Source: Polytrichum commune (Eukaryota > Streptophyta > Polytrichopsida > Polytrichales > Polytrichaceae). From it: a stretch of 64,000 nt of DNA. Every line of letters starts with the position of its first letter. The stretch's first letter is position 1. The notes beneath the pieces were generated by a model. It worked only from the letters and a program-made list of their open reading frames with translations. It had not been told where the DNA came from and searched no databases. A program made the translations under genes and the position numbers. Below are positions 21,094-32,425 of this stretch, piece by piece. The stretch lies in assembly GCA_950295325.1 (NCBI GenBank), contig OX485804.1, positions 5,952,001 to 6,016,000 of the forward strand. The letters run 5' to 3'.

Positions 21094-21776
21094 TTACCCG
21101 TCTATGAGTGTCTGCCATCCACATGTGATCTCGACATCACAAGTTCACTTTGTGTAAGGAACTATTCTTTGTCGTGAAATGTTAAATTGTAACAAGTCTT
21201 AGAAAAGAATTTAACACCTCTGAAGTCCTTTTAATTTCTAGGGCTTGGTAAGGTCAACTCACCTTCAATTATAGAAGAGCTTGCACATGCTATATCGACA
21301 CGTGGACAAAATTATATCTACAAATCGTGGAATCTTAGAGTCTACAATTTCTTGAAGAATCCATTAGATTTGCAGTCTCATACTCTCCACTAAATTAACC
21401 CATGTTTTTGGGCTCCAGATTCCAGGAATACGTATAATCCCGCCACCTTGAAGGGCCACCTTCAAGGAGGAAAAGCTTTCTCCAGGGGCATTTTATATTA
21501 GGGCCCATTTTCAAACCCTAGGCATCAACCAATCAGAGTGGTTGGATTGTCCAAATGGGCCCTAATATGGGCCCAAGGACTTTATATTGAGAGTCGGCCC
21601 ACTTGTCCTAAAGCTTGCGTGGCGGGTGACATGGCGGCTTTTCGGAGGGAAAGAACTGGGCCGAAGCCAAAAGATTGGGTCGAGGGTTTATGGAGACCCA
21701 CTTCGCACCTACGGCCCACTTCACCCAACTTCCGTGGCTGTGGTTTCTTCCGTGTGTAGTTTCTTCGCTGATTGCC

Positions 21777-23643
21777 ATGGAGGGCACAAGGTGTGAAAAT
21801 GCCCCAACGCAAGAGAGTTCTCAACAAAGCCAGAAGAGAATTGAGAGAGAGGACGATGAGGATGTCAGGGTACTTCAGGAACCTGTTAAGCAGAAAACAG
21901 CATCGAAGAGATCAAAAGGAAAGATGTTGAAGACGGAGGACGAGGACGAGGACGAGGAAGACAGAGGGGCAAGGTGGAAGGATGACGAGATCGAAATTCT
22001 AATTGCATTGCGTGGAGAAATGCACGATGATTTCAAGAAAAACAGCAAAAAACAAGGTAGGATACTCACCTGTAATGTTGGGGTTTCTTCCTTTCCTTTC
22101 CTTTCCTGCTGGAGGAATGAAGAGAACTGCTTTGAAATCCACATCGTCTTCTGCTTTGAAATGAGTCCAACCCAAAGGTTCTTCACCAAAAGCCTGTGGC
22201 TCAAAGAGAAGCCAAGTTGAGAATGAATTTCAGAAAACCGTCCTTGATGATCTAGTGTTCTATGCAATCTCGCATAAACTTCAACCAAGTTACGTAGATG
22301 GGGCATATGAATTTTCTTTTCTCAAGCGAGTCCATAAAGAATTTTCTGAGAAATATACAACACAGTCAGTTTTTCAGTTACTTCTGATCTTATCCCAGTG
22401 CATTTCGACCTTGAATGAGCAAATACCAACCTCTCAATGTACTTGAAACCCACAAAAAAGTCACAAACCTTTGTGGGAGATTGATAAAAACTTTTATACT
22501 CCTCCGCTGTCACTTCTTTGGTATCTTTAAGCCAAACAGCCTTCGCATCATTCACAAGCTCCCATGCCCATTCTGTATGTTTGATCCTCTTAGGTTTTTC
22601 TTCTGCAAACAACTCAAATTCAGATGTGACAAGTTTTGTAATGTTCGTTACATAAACTCTTAAAAAAATGAGATTTGTTTCTCAGCTTTATGTTGGCATA
22701 CGTTTCACACTGAGGATTCCTACTGTGCACAAGCTATGTATTGTCTGATTGATGAACATTCAATCTCCCGGAAAGCTCTGAAAACGCCCCAAAGGTGAAC
22801 TTCTAGTCAATAATTTGAAATCCTAGTGAACATAAAGGTGAACTTGTAGCGCCATAGGATATAATTCGAGAATGTCAAATTTCTAGATGTGTTACTTTAA
22901 GTTGGATATGGCAGATATAATAACACAACAAGCATATGAAGTGCGTGCATATGCTTATACGATATCCTCTGGTTCTGGGGGGGGAAAATGATTCTGACCC
23001 TCTCGTAAATGTTCTTCAACTTTTCCCTTTTTCAAGTCCACTTGCTAAGTTTCCGATGCCTACTTGACATGGCAGATTTGTTTGTTTACATAAATACTAT
23101 TTCTTTAACAATTAGAAATACATACGTTAGTCACTGTTCTGTCAGCTTGTAGTACATGAAATCTATCTTGAGTTCAATTACACATGCATCTCACATAAAA
23201 AGTTTCTTTGACTCGGACAGACCAACTAAGATGTGAAGTTTGTTACGAGATATGGTTCATTACTTTATATAATCCAGTCAAACAACTACCTGGGGGACAT
23301 AGATTAAATAACAAGAAGCCGTGGTTCTCACTTGCCTGCACATTTTCTGAAACATCCTCTTTCCAAATGTTGCCATCGTCTCCCTCAGATGGTTTCTCAA
23401 TTTCCGCAATTGCTTGTTGCAGGGGTTGACATGTGGCACAAGCTCCATGCTCGTCTTCTCTCCCAAATTCCTACTTTGAAAAAATCGCCTGTGGCAGTAA
23501 AGAAGAAGTTTAACAACTTGTTCAAGGCCTATAAGGAAAACAAACTAGCAAACAATGTATCTGGTGAAAGTCGCCACGAGTGCAAGTATTACGACCAATT
23601 TGAGTCTTGTTTTCCCGAACAGGATCTGTTCAGAAACATGTGA
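21777..23643 (+). CDS. Trihelix (GT-type) DNA-binding protein, two exons
   Basis: Exon 1 is 21,777-22,056 and exon 2 is 23,423-23,643. The intron begins GTAGGA and ends TTGTTGCAG, and a glycine codon is split across the junction. The ATG sits in a GCCATGG context. The product is about 166 residues. Residues 1-70 are hydrophilic and charged, with a basic KQKTASKRSKGKM stretch (possible nuclear signal) and an acidic EDEDEDEEDR run. The trihelix then starts RWKDDEIEILIALRGEM, continues across the junction as KKQGVDMWHKLHARLL and VKKKFNNLFKAYKENK, and ends with the fourth-helix-like CKYYDQFESCF. Regularly spaced Trp, Trp and Phe match the GT-factor domain. Expected role: nuclear promoter binding. 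The C-terminus is short for the family. A donor-like GTGAGC overlaps the last codons, and an open stretch with LPVEDFVEDFAINLG follows in another frame, so a further exon is possible. Confidence 0.8.
22070..22602 (-). pseudogene. HSP90/GRP94-like gene fragment, two exons, antisense in the trihelix intron
   Basis: The first exon (22,602 down to 22,469) follows an acceptor TTTGCAG and encodes TEWAWELVNDAKAVWLK and KEVTAEEYKSFYQSPTK. It ends in a GTTTGT donor. The second exon (22,193 down to 22,070) follows GAGCCACAG and reads AFGEEPLGWTHFKAEDDVDF then FKAVLFIPPAG, ending in a GTGAGT donor. Joined in phase, these match the start of the HSP90 middle domain, closest in wording to endoplasmin (GRP94). 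About 85 residues of a protein normally over 700 are present, with neither ATPase domain nor C-terminus. After PPAG the match stops. No stop codons interrupt it, so capture was recent or it is under some constraint. It is most likely a transduplicated gene fragment. Confidence 0.75.
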
Positions 23644-23979: not shown

Positions 23980-26900
23980 ATGATGGAAGCGGATTCATTG
24001 GAGACGTTTGCGGACGAGAAGGGAATTGCCTTTTTTCTTGTAAGCCACAAATTTTATTTTTCTTCTCGTTCTTTCCAATGAAGTTTGTGGCATGCATGTT
24101 TTTGGATGCTTCTTCAATTCCTTATTGCATACGCGGGGTGTGAGGAGGAATTTCTTGATGAAGTGGGGTCTTTTCGATTCTAGAGAGAGGATGGTTGTAA
24201 TGACCCATAGCCATATTCCTCGCTTGTGATTGAAAAGATGCAAAATGAGATGAAACCTCGATTTCTTGCTCAGCTCGATTCCACCTCACATCAATTATGT
24301 ATGTATGTTAACCCGATACAAGGAGCCTAACTTTGGGTTGTAGCTAGTTGCACTTAGATTGTTGAGCAAAATCATGTCGGGTAGCATACTCAATTGTAGT
24401 GCACTTATTTATGCTGGTCTAAACAACACTTATGAGAAAATAAACCCAAAAATGAGATGACAGTTTGATGTTCTTGCTTAGTTCGATCCTGAGTCCTCAC
24501 ATCAATTATGTATGTATGTTGGTCAATATGAGGAGCCTAACTTTGGGTTATATATAGTTGCTTTCAAATTGTCGAGCAGTAAGTGTTGGTTATCATACTC
24601 AAGTGTAGTGTACTTATTAATGTTTGGTTTGAACAACAATTGTGAGTGAAATTCTCAACCATGTCTGATGAACATGCTTGATAAACATGCTTCTTTAATT
24701 AATTGTTATGTAGTTTCCATTGGGAATAGATTATGCTCTCCACTTGAAGTTTCTTACCGTGAACCACACATTCCAAAAATAGAATATGGTCCAATAGAAT
24801 GTTCACAGAGTTCTTCAATGATGTGACGAAATCTCTTCCTGTTGTGATAATTGGGACGACAGCAAGTTTTGTAACTTGGTAGTCAGCAGGTTATTGAAAA
24901 TTGGTTTTCTTTCTGTGCACTTTCACTTCTTGCAGATTATCTTGAATGCTCCAATAATTTGCGTTTGGCATTTCAGAGGTTATCTGAATGTACCTATGGG
25001 TGAGTGCAGATAAGTTATGTGGATCTGTTGGGCGTTTTGCGCTCCAAACTGGTGCCCTGTGCGGCAATAGGGAAAATGCAAAAACTTGGAGCGGGGTTTG
25101 CAGGCTATGCCGCACACTTCCGGATGACTGCTGCGGATCCGGATGTGGTTTGGTTCAATTTACCATACTTTTTATTAACCTTTTGAGTGAATTTCCAACA
25201 GACCAATTTTTTTGTCTCCTTCTCCTGCTAATTGGATGCCAGAGGGTTGTAAGTTTTATCAATCTTGAAATAAGTGGCTATGCTCTCAAGTCAATGCGCC
25301 TGGATTTGTGAATATGTGATCCACTGTAACATGTAACCTTCCATGTGAATGGGACTAGGTTAACCAAACTGAACTTCCACTCTTTAAGAGAGATCTTACT
25401 CTCAAGACTCCTCTAGAAATACCTAATTGTTACATTGGTTTAAACAAACTCTACAATGTTCCATGTAAAGTTCCATGTGAATGGGACTAACTTAACTAAA
25501 ATTAACTAGAACTCCATATAAGGAATTAAAATGCCAACTAAATACAGTTGTGAGGACCTTATGATTAAGTTAGTCCCATTTACATGTTACATGGAACTAT
25601 TGCAGATGGCAATACCGGATCCCAAGAGTGTCATTCAACTGCCATGGAGAAAGGATGTGGCATGGGTCGCCAGTGATCTTTACATGAATGGATCCCTCCT
25701 GGAACAATCACCTCGGCAAATTCTCAAAAATCAGGTATATTCTTCTTCAATTGCTTTTGCTATTTGCACACCATTGCAAGTTGCAGACGACCTTGTACTA
25801 CATGTCATCTATCATTGTTTTGCAAGAGTCCCATATATTGAAACCACTTTCACATCAAGTGCATGTACCATGTGTATGTAGTTTGGGTCCTAGATCTTCT
25901 GCTCTTTCAGGTGTCAATGTTGTTTTTCTAAGAGACGACACCAACCGTAGGCCTGAAATTTCATGTCTACATGTCATTTCACCTACTTATTCCATCTTAG
26001 ACTTAGGTTCCTTTGTAAACCTGAGATGGATTTATACATCTAAGCTATGGGAAAAAATTGTTTTCTACCTCACTTTTGAGTGAGATGGTTTTGATCAGAT
26101 CAAGAGATTCGCCGAAACAGGACACATTATGAAGACTGGTGTGGAGTGCGAGTTTTTTCTTCTCGAAAACGGCGCGGGTATCAAAATTGCTGATAGCAAA
26201 GATGCTGCTGGAAAGCCATGCTATGATCAGGTATGTTGTAATTACAGTTTGCCTTGTTTAATGTGCTTCTTTGAAACCATGATACATGGGTACTTAATAT
26301 TCATGGAGTTTACAGTTTTACATATGAGATACAAGCTGAAAGTAGAACTTGTTAGACTACATACACTACTGCAAAATGTGGGTTCCTTAAGTGCAATTCC
26401 CTTTAATGGAACATGTCCTATGTGACTTCCAAAGACCATTTCAATGTTTTGTCATTGAAACTCCACTTTAAATACACATGGGCCACTATCCATTCTGTGG
26501 GTGTGCTTAAGAATCCCACATACTTTAGTAGCGAGACTTCTAGAAGGGACTTGGCCTTGTAATGACAGATTAAACTGTAGTAAAACTATATCAAATAGGT
26601 CATCATTAATTTGGCCCAGGGTTGATAGAGGCACTCCCTTTTTAGTAGTAGTAGTAGTAAAGCTGCAAATGAATGACAGGCATCCATTCTGAATGGGTTT
26701 TGTTCCAGGGTGCACTTATGCGGCACTACAAGGTTATATCGGAGCTTCTTGACCATATGCAGACACTTGGGTGGAATCCATACCAAGCTGATCATGAGGT
26801 AAATCACTTGAGTTTAGCACAAAAATACAAACTGTCGATGTATATCACATTTGAAGTGTTTAAAGCACATCACTCACTTAGGCGCTAGGTACACTGGAAA

Positions 26901-29900
26901 GAAAGAGGAAGACGACTCTGATGTTGCCAACGATGTGAATTAAGGGTTGCTTCATTCTTGAGTTTGTCTAAGTCTATTTGTTATCCCGAAACGGGCAATA
27001 CGAGAATTAGAGGGCCCCCAACGACTAATGCCTCCTTTTGAAGTTGAACACCTTGAACGGGTGCGGAGAAGTTGGCCAACACCTATTTTTCCCAAGGGCT
27101 CCCCCTAGGTTTTCAAAATGATTGATTGGTTTGAAATATTTGGTTCACTTGGATACCCCCACTATGATAGGCACTCTGATTATGGGACATGTGGAATAAT
27201 GTGCTTACTCTAGGTAGCCCTATAGTGTGATCCACAATGTATATCATCATATATGAAAATAGTGTGCAACCCTAATCACAATTAATGTCATGGCCTCTCT
27301 GATACATCAATATCCTTCCCCTAGGTTGGAGGTCTCTCAAATGCACACTATTTCCAATCCAATAGAAAAACTATAACCTATAACATGGACCTCTGATGTC
27401 AATACTGAGAGTAGTTTACACCTACAATGTTATCCCCAATGTTTTTGATTAGTAAATAAGCTTAACAGTGCGGCCCATGGTATTAACCATAATCAATGTA
27501 GTTAGAAACAATGTTTGAATATGGTCAATGCATATGCATGGATTGTGAAATATTAGAGCCACTAATAAATTAACAAGAGCCCTACTCTCTATGAGATGCT
27601 CTCCATAGGACAAGACTTGCTTCAATTGTTTAGATGGTCTGATTTTTTTCCATGAAGTTACATAAATATCCTGTCAAGTGTATATTCACCTTCAATTTAC
27701 CGTCAAACCTTGCTTAGTCTGTTGCTCTACATGGCAGGATGCAAATGGGCAATTTGAGTTGAACTGGGAGTATGATGACTGCTTGGCAACGGCTGATAAA
27801 CATACATTCTTCAAGTTCATGGCAAAGTCTATTGCAGAGAAGCATGGTAATACCCATTTCTATTCGTTATGGGTTATGGTCTTATATCCATAACCCATAA
27901 GATCCTAATTCCTAAATCCTGGGATGTAATTTATGCATAGTTAACAATGGAAGAATATGTCTACTTGAAATTTCTTTAGATGTTTGTTGCGATATTGATT
28001 TAAGTAGTGTGATACCAAGGCCTTGCAGGAGTGTGCTGAGCACAACCTAGTCATGTGTAGTGGTTGAGGTGGAAAAACGTGGCTCTCATGGGTGCAGGAT
28101 ATAGAGCAACATTTATGCCCAAACCTTTTGTCAACAAAACAGGGAATGGCGCACACTGCCATGTGTCTGTATGGAATGATTCTTCACAAAATAATCTTTT
28201 CGAGGATTCTGCTGGAGAATTGGTAGACTTCTGTCAGCTTTACCGATTACTTTGATTTTATGCAAATGGCATTGGTGCAGCAAAGATTAAATACACTTGA
28301 TGATTCAAGCAACTCTAAATGTTTGCAGAAGTTAGAATATTCATATTTTGTCACCCTTTAGCAAGCTGCTTTATCGTCTATCGATTAAGGTAGACATGCC
28401 TAATTTGGTCACTCTTCTTAAAAGGACACTTGTATTTGAATAGTATGTGATTAGATGTGGCTCCAAGATTGGACATCAAAAGACATGTGTTTAACATAGA
28501 TTGGACTACGTGCTCAAAATATGATAACCAATTCTAGGTTTAATAGTTGGGAGGACCTATATGACCACTTAATGAGCATGAGAATCTTCATCATGCTAAT
28601 GAATGAGATATTCTAATGTGCTCCAAAAAATATGAGGAAAGTGGCTACGGCCTAGACTTGGATTTGCTAACCATCTTGTTCGAATAGCGTGATTCATATT
28701 CTAGGAGAAGTGGGCTGGTCGGATAAAGTAAGCATTTAAGACCTATCTACCTTAATCTAAGTTCCTCATCATCCTTAATATTGATCAATAGTTTACATTC
28801 CAGAGTCATAAAGTCTCACTTCAAACTTTGCATATTGTAGAACAAAACTAGACTTGCTACTTGTTACCTAACAAGGTTACAGTTGTGTGCCAAGCAAGAT
28901 CCAAAATGTCTACTGTAGAGGGCTCTATTCAATCTTTACTAGTGCAAGAATGTAGTTCCACGTAGGATTCAAGTGGGTTTCCATCAATGTAGGAATGACA
29001 CATGGCATTTAAACGGTTATTCAATTACATTTTGCTGGAGTAGAGAGCCTTCCACAGTATGTTATGCACTTTCTTTGTCAAGTTTTCAAAACAAGTCGTA
29101 CGTGGAAGAGTGAGGCTTACTTGATCAGTGTCCTCCATCTAATTTAATGTACACATATTTGGTGGATGTTCTTAGTGGGTCAAGTGAATTGTCTCAAGTT
29201 TTTCCTCACCAGGATAGAGGGCTGGATTCCAGGGTCTTTCAAGCTTGGCATATAATTTCTTGGCAGGGGTTTTGGAGAGTGCACAGGTATGAGAACCTCA
29301 TACTAATTATTACGATACAAGAAATTTTCACAATTTTTTTGATACATGATTCCTTGTATTAAATTGAATAACATATCTCCTATGAAATTTAGTCACATCA
29401 AGAATGTATCAATGGATTCACCCATAGAATTGAGTTAACCAAAGAGTCCAAATTTTGAAAACATGTCCAATTTTACTCGAATAAGAATTATTTCCACAAA
29501 CAGGTCGACTTTGAAGCTTTACCTTGATCTTCGTCAAATGTCAAGCCTTCTCATTAATTTGTTGAAACATGCAGGCAATGGTGGCGCTTTTGAATCCAAC
29601 CGTGAACAGCTATAAGCGGATTGATGGACAATCAACTACATCAGGATCATCTTGGGCTCCTTGTACAATTTCCTACACTGGCAACAATCGCACACATTTG
29701 TTGCGGTGTGTAAGCTCCTTACACCTGCCAATACATTAAAGAAACCATTTAGCTTCCTACTTTTATGTATAACTCATTTTGATGTGTCAATTCTGAATCC
29801 ACCATTGATTTTGTACAAAATATATATGTTGATGGGAGGTGACAATATAGTGATAAACTTTCTCAGAGGTTGTCTTCCTTTCAAGGAATAATATTTGCAG

Positions 29901-32425
29901 GTTAGATGATCTAGAGACATGGTGTATAACTTTGTGATGAATGTTTTTAAAGTTACTAAGGCGATGACTCACCAACCAATGGTTGCCATTTAGATAATTT
30001 TTTTTGAGAATAGAATTCAAGAAAGGTCCCAGTAGGTATCTTTGTGTTCTTCGTAATTTTGTCTTACTAATGGTAATGATCCCGTTTCAAACAAAGAGGC
30101 GCTCATAAAAAGTTTTTGTGGCTGGAAATGAGCTAACACCTCCTTTTGTTGATCCTGTACATCATATTTATTGTAAATCGTCATTTTTCCAATTGCTTTA
30201 TTATTTCAACTCAAAGTGCGTAGGTATCCTTACTACAATCTTGGAAGTCTGGACCATGGTTTTATTACTTGAAGTTTGATTAGTCCATATTGAGCATCAA
30301 ATTTTTTTTGAAAACAAATGAACATAGTTAATTTACATAATTGATCTAAAAATTACTATCAACAACTTTGTTACCAGATACAATGACTTTTGAGATTTAG
30401 AAAGCTTAGTTTTTATTGATCTAATTGAAGAGCAATTCACTCTAAGAAATTAAGGGTTAATCTTCTCTTTGTTATTATGCTAATGTGCATTCCCAGAATA
30501 CCAGAAGCAGGGCGATTTGAGTTGCGGCTTGCAGATGGAGCTGTAAATCCATACCTCCTACAAGCAACAATACTTGGCAAGCATCTCCTTGCTAATCTTC
30601 TGTTTGCCTTTTTATACATACTGAGCATGTAGGCATTTCGGAGCTAACATAAATTTCATCCATTCATTCAATTTTCATGTAAATTACCATAGGCTACTCT
30701 ACAGTTTTTCATTCAAGCATAAAAATATATCATATATATTGCCGATTATAATTCATCATGTTGAATTTGAGTTTCTCAATAATTTGTTAGTGACAAATTT
30801 ACCAATCAGAATGAAGTTTGATACCAACCAAAAAAAAACTTCGTAAGAATAGGATCTTATGATATGTGGTCTTAGAATCAACTTGCAAGAATTTCGTCAC
30901 AAATATGTAGGATTTTGCTTTCAGTATTTAGATTTTCCTTTATTTTCCTCTATTGGTGACAAATAGCATAGTACCCCAATGTAGTACCTAACTAGCAAGG
31001 GGTGGATGTGCTTCATTAGCAAGTGGGCTCCACGGCATTGAGAAAAAATTAAAACCACCGCCACGTTGTGATTGGAACGGACACCTACCCCCTCCAAAAG
31101 GATTTTCTGTAAGTGCCAACTCCCTCAAATTTCATGCATCACAAACCTCCAAATCCATTTTTCCAACACTAAGTTCACAATGATTTAATCATTCAAACTA
31201 AAACTATGAAACAATGCCTCCCAAACATAGGGTTGGGATTGTAGTTTTTGGTCTCTTTGTTTTATAGTTGCAAAGTTTAAAAGGTCAGAGTATAAGTAGA
31301 ATCAATGTTGACTAAACTAATAGCTATATGTTGGGTCAAACCATAAACTAGGGTATCCTTCAAAACACTGGTTCAACATCAAATGATGGTTATTTGCATT
31401 TTGAGATGTGCATGTGATTGTATTGCTTCTTGAAAAACATTGATACTCTCACTTAGAGATTGAATAGTTGTCTTTTGTCTTTGCTTTTGATTTCAAGGAA
31501 CTACCCTCGCTGCCATCAAACCTGTTGGAAGCATTGCAAAACCTTTCCACATCAAACGTTTTCAAAAAGGTTTGCAAACTTTACCACTTGTAGCGTTAAT
31601 TGTTTCAATGTGTTTAGGTTCTTGTTGCATCCATTTAAACATGTGCATCATCACTTGTTGAGTATACTAAATAATTTGGGTGTCGAATCACTTAATCCTC
31701 ATGGCTGGAGGGCAATGCGTTTTGTGAGATGCATTATGCTTTAGCATTTCCAAGGGTTCCTTGAAATATATATAACAAAAGAGAAGTTGTGAAGCACCTT
31801 CTCAAGATCACATCCATACGATTAGAGGTTTAAAATAGAAGTTTTGGTCCCCTATAATGAATAGAATTGAAAGCTTTGAAAGCTCATCATAATCACAAAT
31901 CCCATTGATTATGATGAGAAACTTGATAGGATTGGTTGGAATTATAAATACTATAGGCCAATATACTTGCATAGGCCAATTTGGGATTCACCTATCCTAG
32001 TATGACAATACTAAATTTCTAGCTTGTCATACTAGGATAGGTGTTACTATACTTGCATAGGCCAATTTGGGATTCAAGGTGGCAGGCCCCATGGACAAAC
32101 CCTCTTTCAAATCTTAGAATGTTTTCAATTTTTTGGGATGACAAGTGGAAGTCCAAGGAGATTCACCCAACCTTCAAGTAGGCTCCAACACAAGACAAGC
32201 TCACAAGTTCTTAATTAAAATAAATAAATAAAATCATAATTTTTCAAACCCACGATTTCATCCCTCGTTGAGAAACTTTACACATGACTATTGCGTTGTG
32301 CCATGTGAATGCAGGCATTTGGTGAGGAGTTTATTGAGTGCTACTTGGACGTACAAAGGCAACAATGGCGCTCATACGCCAGTCATCTCTCACAATGGGA
32401 ACTCGATACCACTTTGGATTGTTGA
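23980..32425 (+). CDS. glnT: Type III (GlnT-family) glutamine synthetase, 13 exons, complete
   Basis: Exons: 23980-24039, 25010-25144, 25606-25734, 26099-26230, 26709-26798, 27738-27846, 28098-28222, 29233-29286, 29575-29705, 30497-30576, 31020-31108, 31498-31569, 32315-32425. Spliced length is 438 residues, the size of bacterial GlnT. All phases join and no stop interrupts. Expected reaction: ATP-dependent glutamate plus ammonia to glutamine. Visible motifs: metal-binding VECEFF (E124, E126), ADHE (E182) and GQFELNW (E189), HCHVS (H238/H240), NPTVNSYKRI (285-294), NNRTH (R317), RFELRLAD (E330, R332), and a C-terminal ELDTTLDC. The start MMEADSLETF joins KGIAFFL to ISYVDLLG, as in the family's N-terminus. 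There is no obvious transit peptide, so it is probably cytosolic. Intron 10 uses a GC donor. Exon 11 is the most diverged. It is unlike plant GS1/GS2. Confidence 0.9.
24244..24650. repeat. 207-bp tandem duplication in glutamine synthetase intron 1
   Basis: Two units start AATGAGATGA at 24,244 and 24,451. Both contain ATCAATTATGTATGTATGTT, GGAGCCTAACTTTGGGTT and a GTAGTGYACTTATT block. They are about 80 percent alike by eye. Non-coding. Confidence 0.85.
25325..25600. mobile_element. Small inverted-repeat element in intron 2
   Basis: TAACATGTAACCTTCCATGT and the nearby TTCCATGTGAATGGGACTAA are inverted at AGTTAGTCCCATTTACATGT and TTACATGGAAC just upstream of exon 3. The element ends a few bases from the acceptor TTGCAG, so it supplies part of the sequence next to the splice site. 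Confidence 0.6.
31990..32270. repeat. Partial relative of the 6.0 kb foldback element in the last intron
   Basis: CTTGTCATACTAGGATAGG, a GGCCCCATGGACAAACC-like block and AGATTCACCCAACCTTCAAG parallel the left arm of 6,027-6,636. A short direct repeat (TACTTGCATAGGCCAATTTG) occurs at 31,965 and 32,049. Confidence 0.55.

Follow-up and report, generated by a model that had tools for sequence, protein, structure and literature searches.

A probable GmaS-like ligase of the GlnT family in a bryophyte chromosome

What does a gene of the GlnT family do in a plant chromosome, and how did it come to be there? The question is raised by a 13-exon gene at positions 23980-32425 (+) of the window, that is, of the whole 64,000-nucleotide stretch of DNA that was analysed. 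The initial annotation had called it an intact, intron-rich type III (GlnT) glutamine synthetase (GS). We find that the gene is real and intact and lies in the host's own chromosome, the host being a bryophyte. With a probability of roughly 60%, the gene encodes an intact GlnT-family (TIGR03105) ligase that works like GmaS, was transferred from a Pseudomonadota-like donor and gained its introns later. Judged from the sequence, the family filing is correct, the chemistry probably differs from the label, and the host is unexpected.

The spliced product scores 597.8 bits against TIGR03105 (GlnT; cut-off 469.6) over profile positions 2-435 of 435. It stays below the cut-offs of the GSI model TIGR00653 (285.1 against 429.15 bits), the GSII model NF041605 (GlnII; 16.6 against 500) and the gamma-glutamylputrescine synthetase model NF045547 (233.2 against 650). 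The Pfam catalytic domain PF00120 is found at 315 bits (cut-off 24), and the N-terminal domain PF03951 is sub-threshold (18.5, cut-off 33.4). The best solved relative is RhGmaS (PDB 7cql; 499 bits, E = 8.7e-149), followed by a glutamate--methylamine ligase (PDB 9qur; 326 bits). The best 80 of 313 confirmed bacterial loci, retrieved with patterns drawn from the query and hence a biased sample, are 55-61% identical to the plant protein, and every named one belongs to Pseudomonadota. A survey of Pseudomonadota gave a match at E<=1e-90 in 47 of 398 genomes (49 matches: 36 at 53-60% identity, 13 at 37-42%). The sample compared consists of bacteria and the host genome, with cyanobacteria and other eukaryotes outside it. 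The TIGR03105 score, the 7cql E-value and the identity of up to 61% to bacterial proteins argue that the GlnT membership is not a matter of chance.

Trees agree with the profiles. In a careful tree, which retains 56 of 117 rows after removal of the paralogues L120-L123 and of rows at least 80% identical to a kept one, the plant row falls in a 52-row group with RhGmaS and the Rhizobium and Ruegeria GlnT proteins. This group is split at 100/100 from a four-row group around 9qur. The corresponding 15-row group in a wider 26-row set, again with the plant row, is also supported at 100/100; there GSI is represented by one archaeal and one partial host row and FluG by one partial host row, GSII being judged by profile only. 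Membership of the plant gene in GSI, FluG or GSII is thus ruled out by profiles and tree together, and the GlnT assignment of the initial annotation stands on both counts: the gene groups with bacterial GlnT and apart from GSI/FluG, and the GSII profile rejects it.

In RhGmaS, 21 residues are reported to bind ATP, glutamate, Mg or methylamine or to act in catalysis (PMC7948447). In our alignment the plant protein has the same residue at each of the 21 positions, and the two ends of the flexible loop are identical too. The catalytic residues D177, E186 and R312 of RhGmaS correspond to D181, E190 and R318, and the methylamine pocket is kept (Y151, Q179, E183, N192 and K33). According to the same report, GS handles ammonium through Asp50' and a flap Glu, in place of which RhGmaS has Ala48 and Trp300 (PMC7948447). 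The plant protein has A51 and W306 at these positions, as in GmaS. The archaeal GSI (7tdp) shows D and E at the two columns of the same alignment; A and W occupy them in 19 of 19 rows of the two GlnT/GmaS clades, the plant row counted. As aligned, the active site is of the GmaS type and not of the GSI type. With the two ammonium-handling residues of GS missing and those of GmaS in their stead, the name "glutamine synthetase" serves here as the label of a family. The seven motifs named earlier (VECEFF, ADHE, GQFELNW, HCHVS, NPTVNSYKRI, NNRTH and RFELRLAD) are all present in the product. The claim that this gives every catalytic motif of a glutamine synthetase fails at A51 and W306; the accompanying hint of another amine acceptor is supported.

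The flap Trp is not special to proven methylamine enzymes, because four distant rows (L120-L123) share it (4/4); their Asp50' column holds T in three and A in one. Three of these loci, L120 (G001:C44), L121 (G002:C18) and L122 (G008:C3:450100-455500), form a second bacterial subfamily that scores above the cut-off of TIGR03105; its members have Thr in place of Asp50' and lack glx neighbours within 2 kb.

The thirteen exons splice in phase, as first proposed, into 1320 nt including the stop codon, with zero internal stops and zero frameshifts. The product has 439 amino acids from the first of two adjacent Met residues and 438 from the second. Eleven introns have GT-AG ends and one GC-AG; nine are in phase 0, two in phase 1 and one in phase 2. 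They measure 251-1010 bases and are as AT-rich as the remaining window (GC content 36%, against 46% in the coding sequence). Searched exon by exon, the assembly yielded 9 of the 13 exons with the TIGR03105 model and likewise 9 with a bacterial GlnT query, and both searches point to a single GlnT-reading locus. Profile positions 348-396, the place of exons 11 and 12, were left uncovered by the model. Exons 1, 8, 11 and 12, too short or too divergent for the search, were placed by phase and splice sites and by aligning the spliced product; for exon 11, the most divergent of all, phase and splice sites were combined with residual similarity. Intron 2 has a weak donor; a site one codon earlier could be used instead, with loss of V66. 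No transit peptide is apparent, because in-frame stops precede the start codon and the protein starts near the start of the RhGmaS alignment (a judgement made without a targeting program). The features, in window positions, are as follows.

Exon 1, 23980..24039, + strand: start codon; no apparent transit peptide.
Exon 2, 25010..25147, + strand: K33 (K30' in RhGmaS) and A51 (A48 in RhGmaS, Asp50' in GS); weak donor.
Exon 3, 25606..25734, + strand.
Exon 4, 26099..26230, + strand: E125, E127 and Y151.
Exon 5, 26709..26798, + strand: Y178, Q179, catalytic D181 and E183.
Exon 6, 27738..27846, + strand: catalytic E190, N192, W193 and Y195.
Exon 7, 28098..28222, + strand: G235, H239, H241 and S243.
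Exon 8, 29233..29286, + strand: 54 nt.
Exon 9, 29575..29705, + strand: R294, W306 (flap position, Glu in GS) and R318.
Exon 10, 30497..30576, + strand: R323 (codon split over the exon 9/10 junction region), E331 and R333.
Intron 10, 30577..31019, + strand: the sole GC-AG intron of the twelve.
Exon 11, 31020..31108, + strand: G363P, M370G and Y371H, at columns invariant in 107 of 107 near bacterial rows.
Exon 12, 31498..31569, + strand.
Exon 13, 32315..32425, + strand: includes the stop codon.

Fragments resembling an intron-bearing trihelix/SANT-like gene (family by eye) lie at 21630-23640 (+) and end some 340 bases before the GlnT start codon.

The plant enzyme is likely, on its predicted active site, a gamma-glutamyl-alkylamide ligase first and a glutamine synthetase second. 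We file the protein under the GlnT family only, and "works like GmaS" would describe its putative chemistry. By homology with RhGmaS, ATP would bind, the loop would close, and glutamate would be phosphorylated with the help of R318 and Mg. D181 would then deprotonate a small primary amine, for which methylamine and ethylamine are our best guesses. The amine would attack the gamma-glutamyl phosphate, and E190 would resolve the tetrahedral intermediate by taking the last proton. The product would be a gamma-glutamyl-alkylamide, with glutamine a poor second product at high ammonium. The enzyme may act in the cytosol, as no transit peptide is apparent. For RhGmaS, Km values of 27 μM for methylamine, 58 μM for ethylamine and 8.7 mM for ammonium are reported, with similar kcat (PMC7948447). 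If the plant enzyme behaves like RhGmaS, conjugation of small amines is to be expected, and glutamine formation only at high ammonium.

The alternative that survives best is a genuine glutamine synthetase with an auxiliary role, a GlnT protein of the cytosol that would aid GSII in ammonium assimilation. The name of the family and its curated annotation speak for it, GlnT-class genes of R. palustris are reported to be up under nitrogen-fixing conditions (PMC10100968), and RhGmaS has the same kcat on ammonium at millimolar levels. We nevertheless consider it unlikely, with Asp50' and the flap Glu replaced by Ala and Trp and at least two GSII genes already in the host.

In bacteria, the GmaS step is the first of the N-methylglutamate pathway. 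The glnT gene of SAR11 has been read as a putative GMAS beside glxBCD, with the N-methylglutamate pathway as proposed there (PMC3160333). We detected glx genes by blastp with reference proteins from plasmid loci (E<=1e-15, frames of at least 120 aa; some flanks were shorter). Of the 80 best bacterial loci, 58 have at least one N-methylglutamate-synthase-type gene (glxB, glxC or glxD) no more than 2 kb away. At least one such gene also occurs in the 3-9 kb flanks of all 10 plasmid loci, and glxD stands beside the gene in 20 of 20 loci from the Pseudomonadota survey; these sets of loci overlap by at least one sequence. Annotated plasmids carry a glxBCD-glnT cluster, several of them beside genes for sarcosine-oxidase-like subunits, folD, purU or dimethylamine monooxygenase. 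None of the four distant loci L120-L123 has a glx gene in its 1-2 kb flanks.

The partners of the pathway were sought in the host by exon-wise search with GlxC, GlxD and SoxB; GlxB was outside this search, and distant copies could escape it. GlxC and SoxB gave no match in the host assembly; in the bacterial control genomes, both queries found matches in 8 of 8. GlxD, for which there was no bacterial control, gave three weak matches at 32-37% identity. Read by eye from GOGAT motifs, these are presumably exons of glutamate synthase (GOGAT). The bacterial GlnT query is 52.7% identical to the plant protein and recovers 9 of the 13 exons, which indicates that the search works at about this identity. 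Nor did the GlxC, GlxD and SoxB searches of the host reveal a glx-type cluster with the plant gene. With no convincing match for GlxC, GlxD or SoxB, the later steps appear to be missing; transfer of the whole N-methylglutamate pathway is rejected on these searches (GlxB unsearched). Because the following steps seem absent, the role in the host would be to store, detoxify or conjugate amine nitrogen and not to feed methylamine oxidation. It is a tentative proposal, at slightly less than even odds, that the plant captured the first enzyme of the methylamine pathway alone, as a gamma-glutamyl-alkylamide (theanine-type) synthetase for amine-nitrogen storage or detoxification. It would then be a eukaryotic GmaS, independent of the theanine synthetase of tea.

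The gene was likely acquired by horizontal transfer from Pseudomonadota-like bacteria and then gained twelve introns. This is favoured because the family is patchy in Pseudomonadota, a single copy was found in the host and bryophytes have a record of microbial gene uptake. That record includes nicotianamine synthase (NAS), reported from many, though not all, mosses as a microbial acquisition (PMC12454661), and GSIIB, reported from green algae, a moss and a liverwort and not from vascular plants (PMC2978018). A glutamine synthetase of P. patens is also listed among transferred genes, with its best hit in Runella (PMC9667741); we presume this to be GSIIB. The host itself has a NAS match (L135, C4:11912553-11913218) in one open frame of 395 codons.

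Besides an old acquisition, the initial annotation had named a retained ancient gene, one kept vertically, for example, from a mitochondrial or early eukaryotic ancestor, and some observations speak for it. The nearest bacteria, among the best 80 of 313 loci, are Alpha- and Gammaproteobacteria, twelve introns fit an old gene, and a quick tree puts the plant row outside all 108 near rows. The careful tree places it inside a mostly alphaproteobacterial half at 88/97 (bootstrap not settled), and the smaller 26-row tree gives it no resolved position within the group. Owing to the long branch and the disagreement of the three trees, the position inside the group is unsure. In this comparison of the host with bacteria, we regard vertical descent as improbable: even among bacteria the family is scattered (a match in 47 of 398 Pseudomonadota genomes), and bryophytes are known to acquire microbial genes.

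Several observations weigh against a GmaS-like ligase acquired from bacteria. The rhizobial glnT is described as conferring glutamine synthetase activity, and the conserved residues do not appear to specify the amine. Twenty-two of the 80 best loci have no glx gene within 2 kb, and they include 11 of 11 rows of an Acidiferrobacteraceae-rich clade of the quick tree; the genome of one glx-less locus (L012, genome G004) carries a close GlxC on another contig. Plant GOGAT has a domain related to GlxC, and the GlxC query nonetheless found nothing in the host, so the searches are weak evidence against distant copies. The branch of the plant row measures 0.74-1.16 changes per site in the three trees, against tip medians of 0.1-0.25. 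Among 107 near rows from bacteria, drawn from 114 loci with duplicates counted, 175 columns are invariant to 95% or more; the plant protein departs from them at 22. Two of the changes at near-invariant columns, N180A and M191L, adjoin the catalytic D181 and E190.

The long branch and the changes at bacterially invariant columns, three of them in exon 11, would also fit a pseudoenzyme or a decaying gene, still open because function was lost recently, or retained for a structural role; the single GC-AG intron and the weak donor of intron 2 point the same way. The coding sequence runs for 1320 nt without stop or frameshift, and 21 of 21 active-site residues are kept at about 60% overall identity, which makes decay quite improbable.

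The gene sits in a contig of 70.3 Mb. The host assembly comprises 64 contigs and 408 Mb, of which C1-C7 measure 77.9, 70.3, 59.2, 59.1, 52.9, 44.7 and 42.1 Mb and the next three 147, 67 and 47 kb; from this steep drop after seven large contigs, we infer seven chromosomes, a number that would suit Polytrichaceae. The 147-kb contig C8 is a bryophyte-like plastid contig: rbcL, atpB, accD and trnR-CCG are among its plastid genes, most of them named by eye, and it also has a frame judged by eye to resemble rpoA. N fills its first 6000 bases. The host is a bryophyte, probably a moss. Its plastid contig and GSII genes bear out the plant host first suggested. Bacterial contamination or a chimeric assembly, to which the identity of up to 61% with bacterial proteins might point, is excluded for practical purposes, as the initial annotation had argued, by twelve AT-rich introns with splice-site ends within the 70.3-Mb contig.

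Other loci of the GS fold in the host number at least two of GSII type, at least two of nodulin/FluG type and at least one other GSI-like. One GSII gene (L084, C5:48255500-48261000) reads as the eubacterial-type GSIIB, and a separate one at C1:28.86 Mb (L085) is of plant type; partial peptides of the host GSII genes score 395 and 422 against NF041605. Two loci on the contig of the GlnT gene, about 2.35 Mb apart, read as nodulin/FluG-type GSI-like: L082 (C2:45361500-45368500), typed by eye, and L083 (C2:43011500-43018000), the one of the two whose product was profiled. L081 (C1:8859500-8867500) is a second bacterial-like GSI-type gene. Its partial product, with predicted exon borders, is nearest to PDB 11zs and 5dm3 and falls below every NCBIfam cut-off. 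Trp replaces Glu at its flap position, so it may likewise not be an ammonium enzyme.

We found no report of GlnT or GmaS in a plant among the listed titles and openings of abstracts, mostly of non-subscription literature and with supplementary tables outside the search. Work on enzymes of the GmaS family has treated them as markers of methylamine use by bacteria (PMC7948447). The presence in a bryophyte of an intact copy rich in introns suggests that certain land plants may conjugate environmental or internal small amines by means of a bacterial-type enzyme. The gene also adds a candidate to the microbial genes retained by bryophytes. A plant gene annotated as "glutamine synthetase" may encode a ligase for which ammonium is not the main substrate.

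Among known systems, classical GSIII (GlnN) shares only the words "type III" with the plant gene. PDB 3o6x (729 aa; database label "Glutamine synthetase"), which we take to be GSIII/GlnN, matches the plant protein at E = 3.3e-5; the "type III" of the initial annotation is to be taken in the sense of GlnT/TIGR03105 and not in the classical one. Plant GSII (GSIIE, GSIIB) and the nodulin/FluG GSI proteins have the same Pfam catalytic domain and stand at other host loci, but are different families. GoaS enzymes are described as distinct from GmaS (PMC11335346). The 9qur clade (Acinetobacter L097, Acidithiobacillus L096, Paraburkholderia L098) is similar in its residues, 9qur being identical to the plant protein at 24 of 25 compared positions. 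All three loci adjoin glxB/C/D, the neighbours of the unannotated L098 being taken from blastp comparison. It is nevertheless a separate clade, and its plasmid copies are 36-39% identical to the plant protein among the matches listed. Rhizobial GlnT belongs to the same clade as the plant protein, with 54-56% identity to Rhizobium/Sinorhizobium plasmid copies (40 of 243 records listed); the bacterial copies lie in a glxBCD-glnT cluster, whereas the plant gene has twelve introns. RhGmaS (Rhodovulum sp. 12E13; PDB 7cql and five further entries) is an enzyme of bacterial methylamine metabolism, from which the plant case differs by the 22 of 175 altered columns and by partners tried and not found in the host; the likeness lies in 21 of 21 residues and in the Ala and Trp positions.

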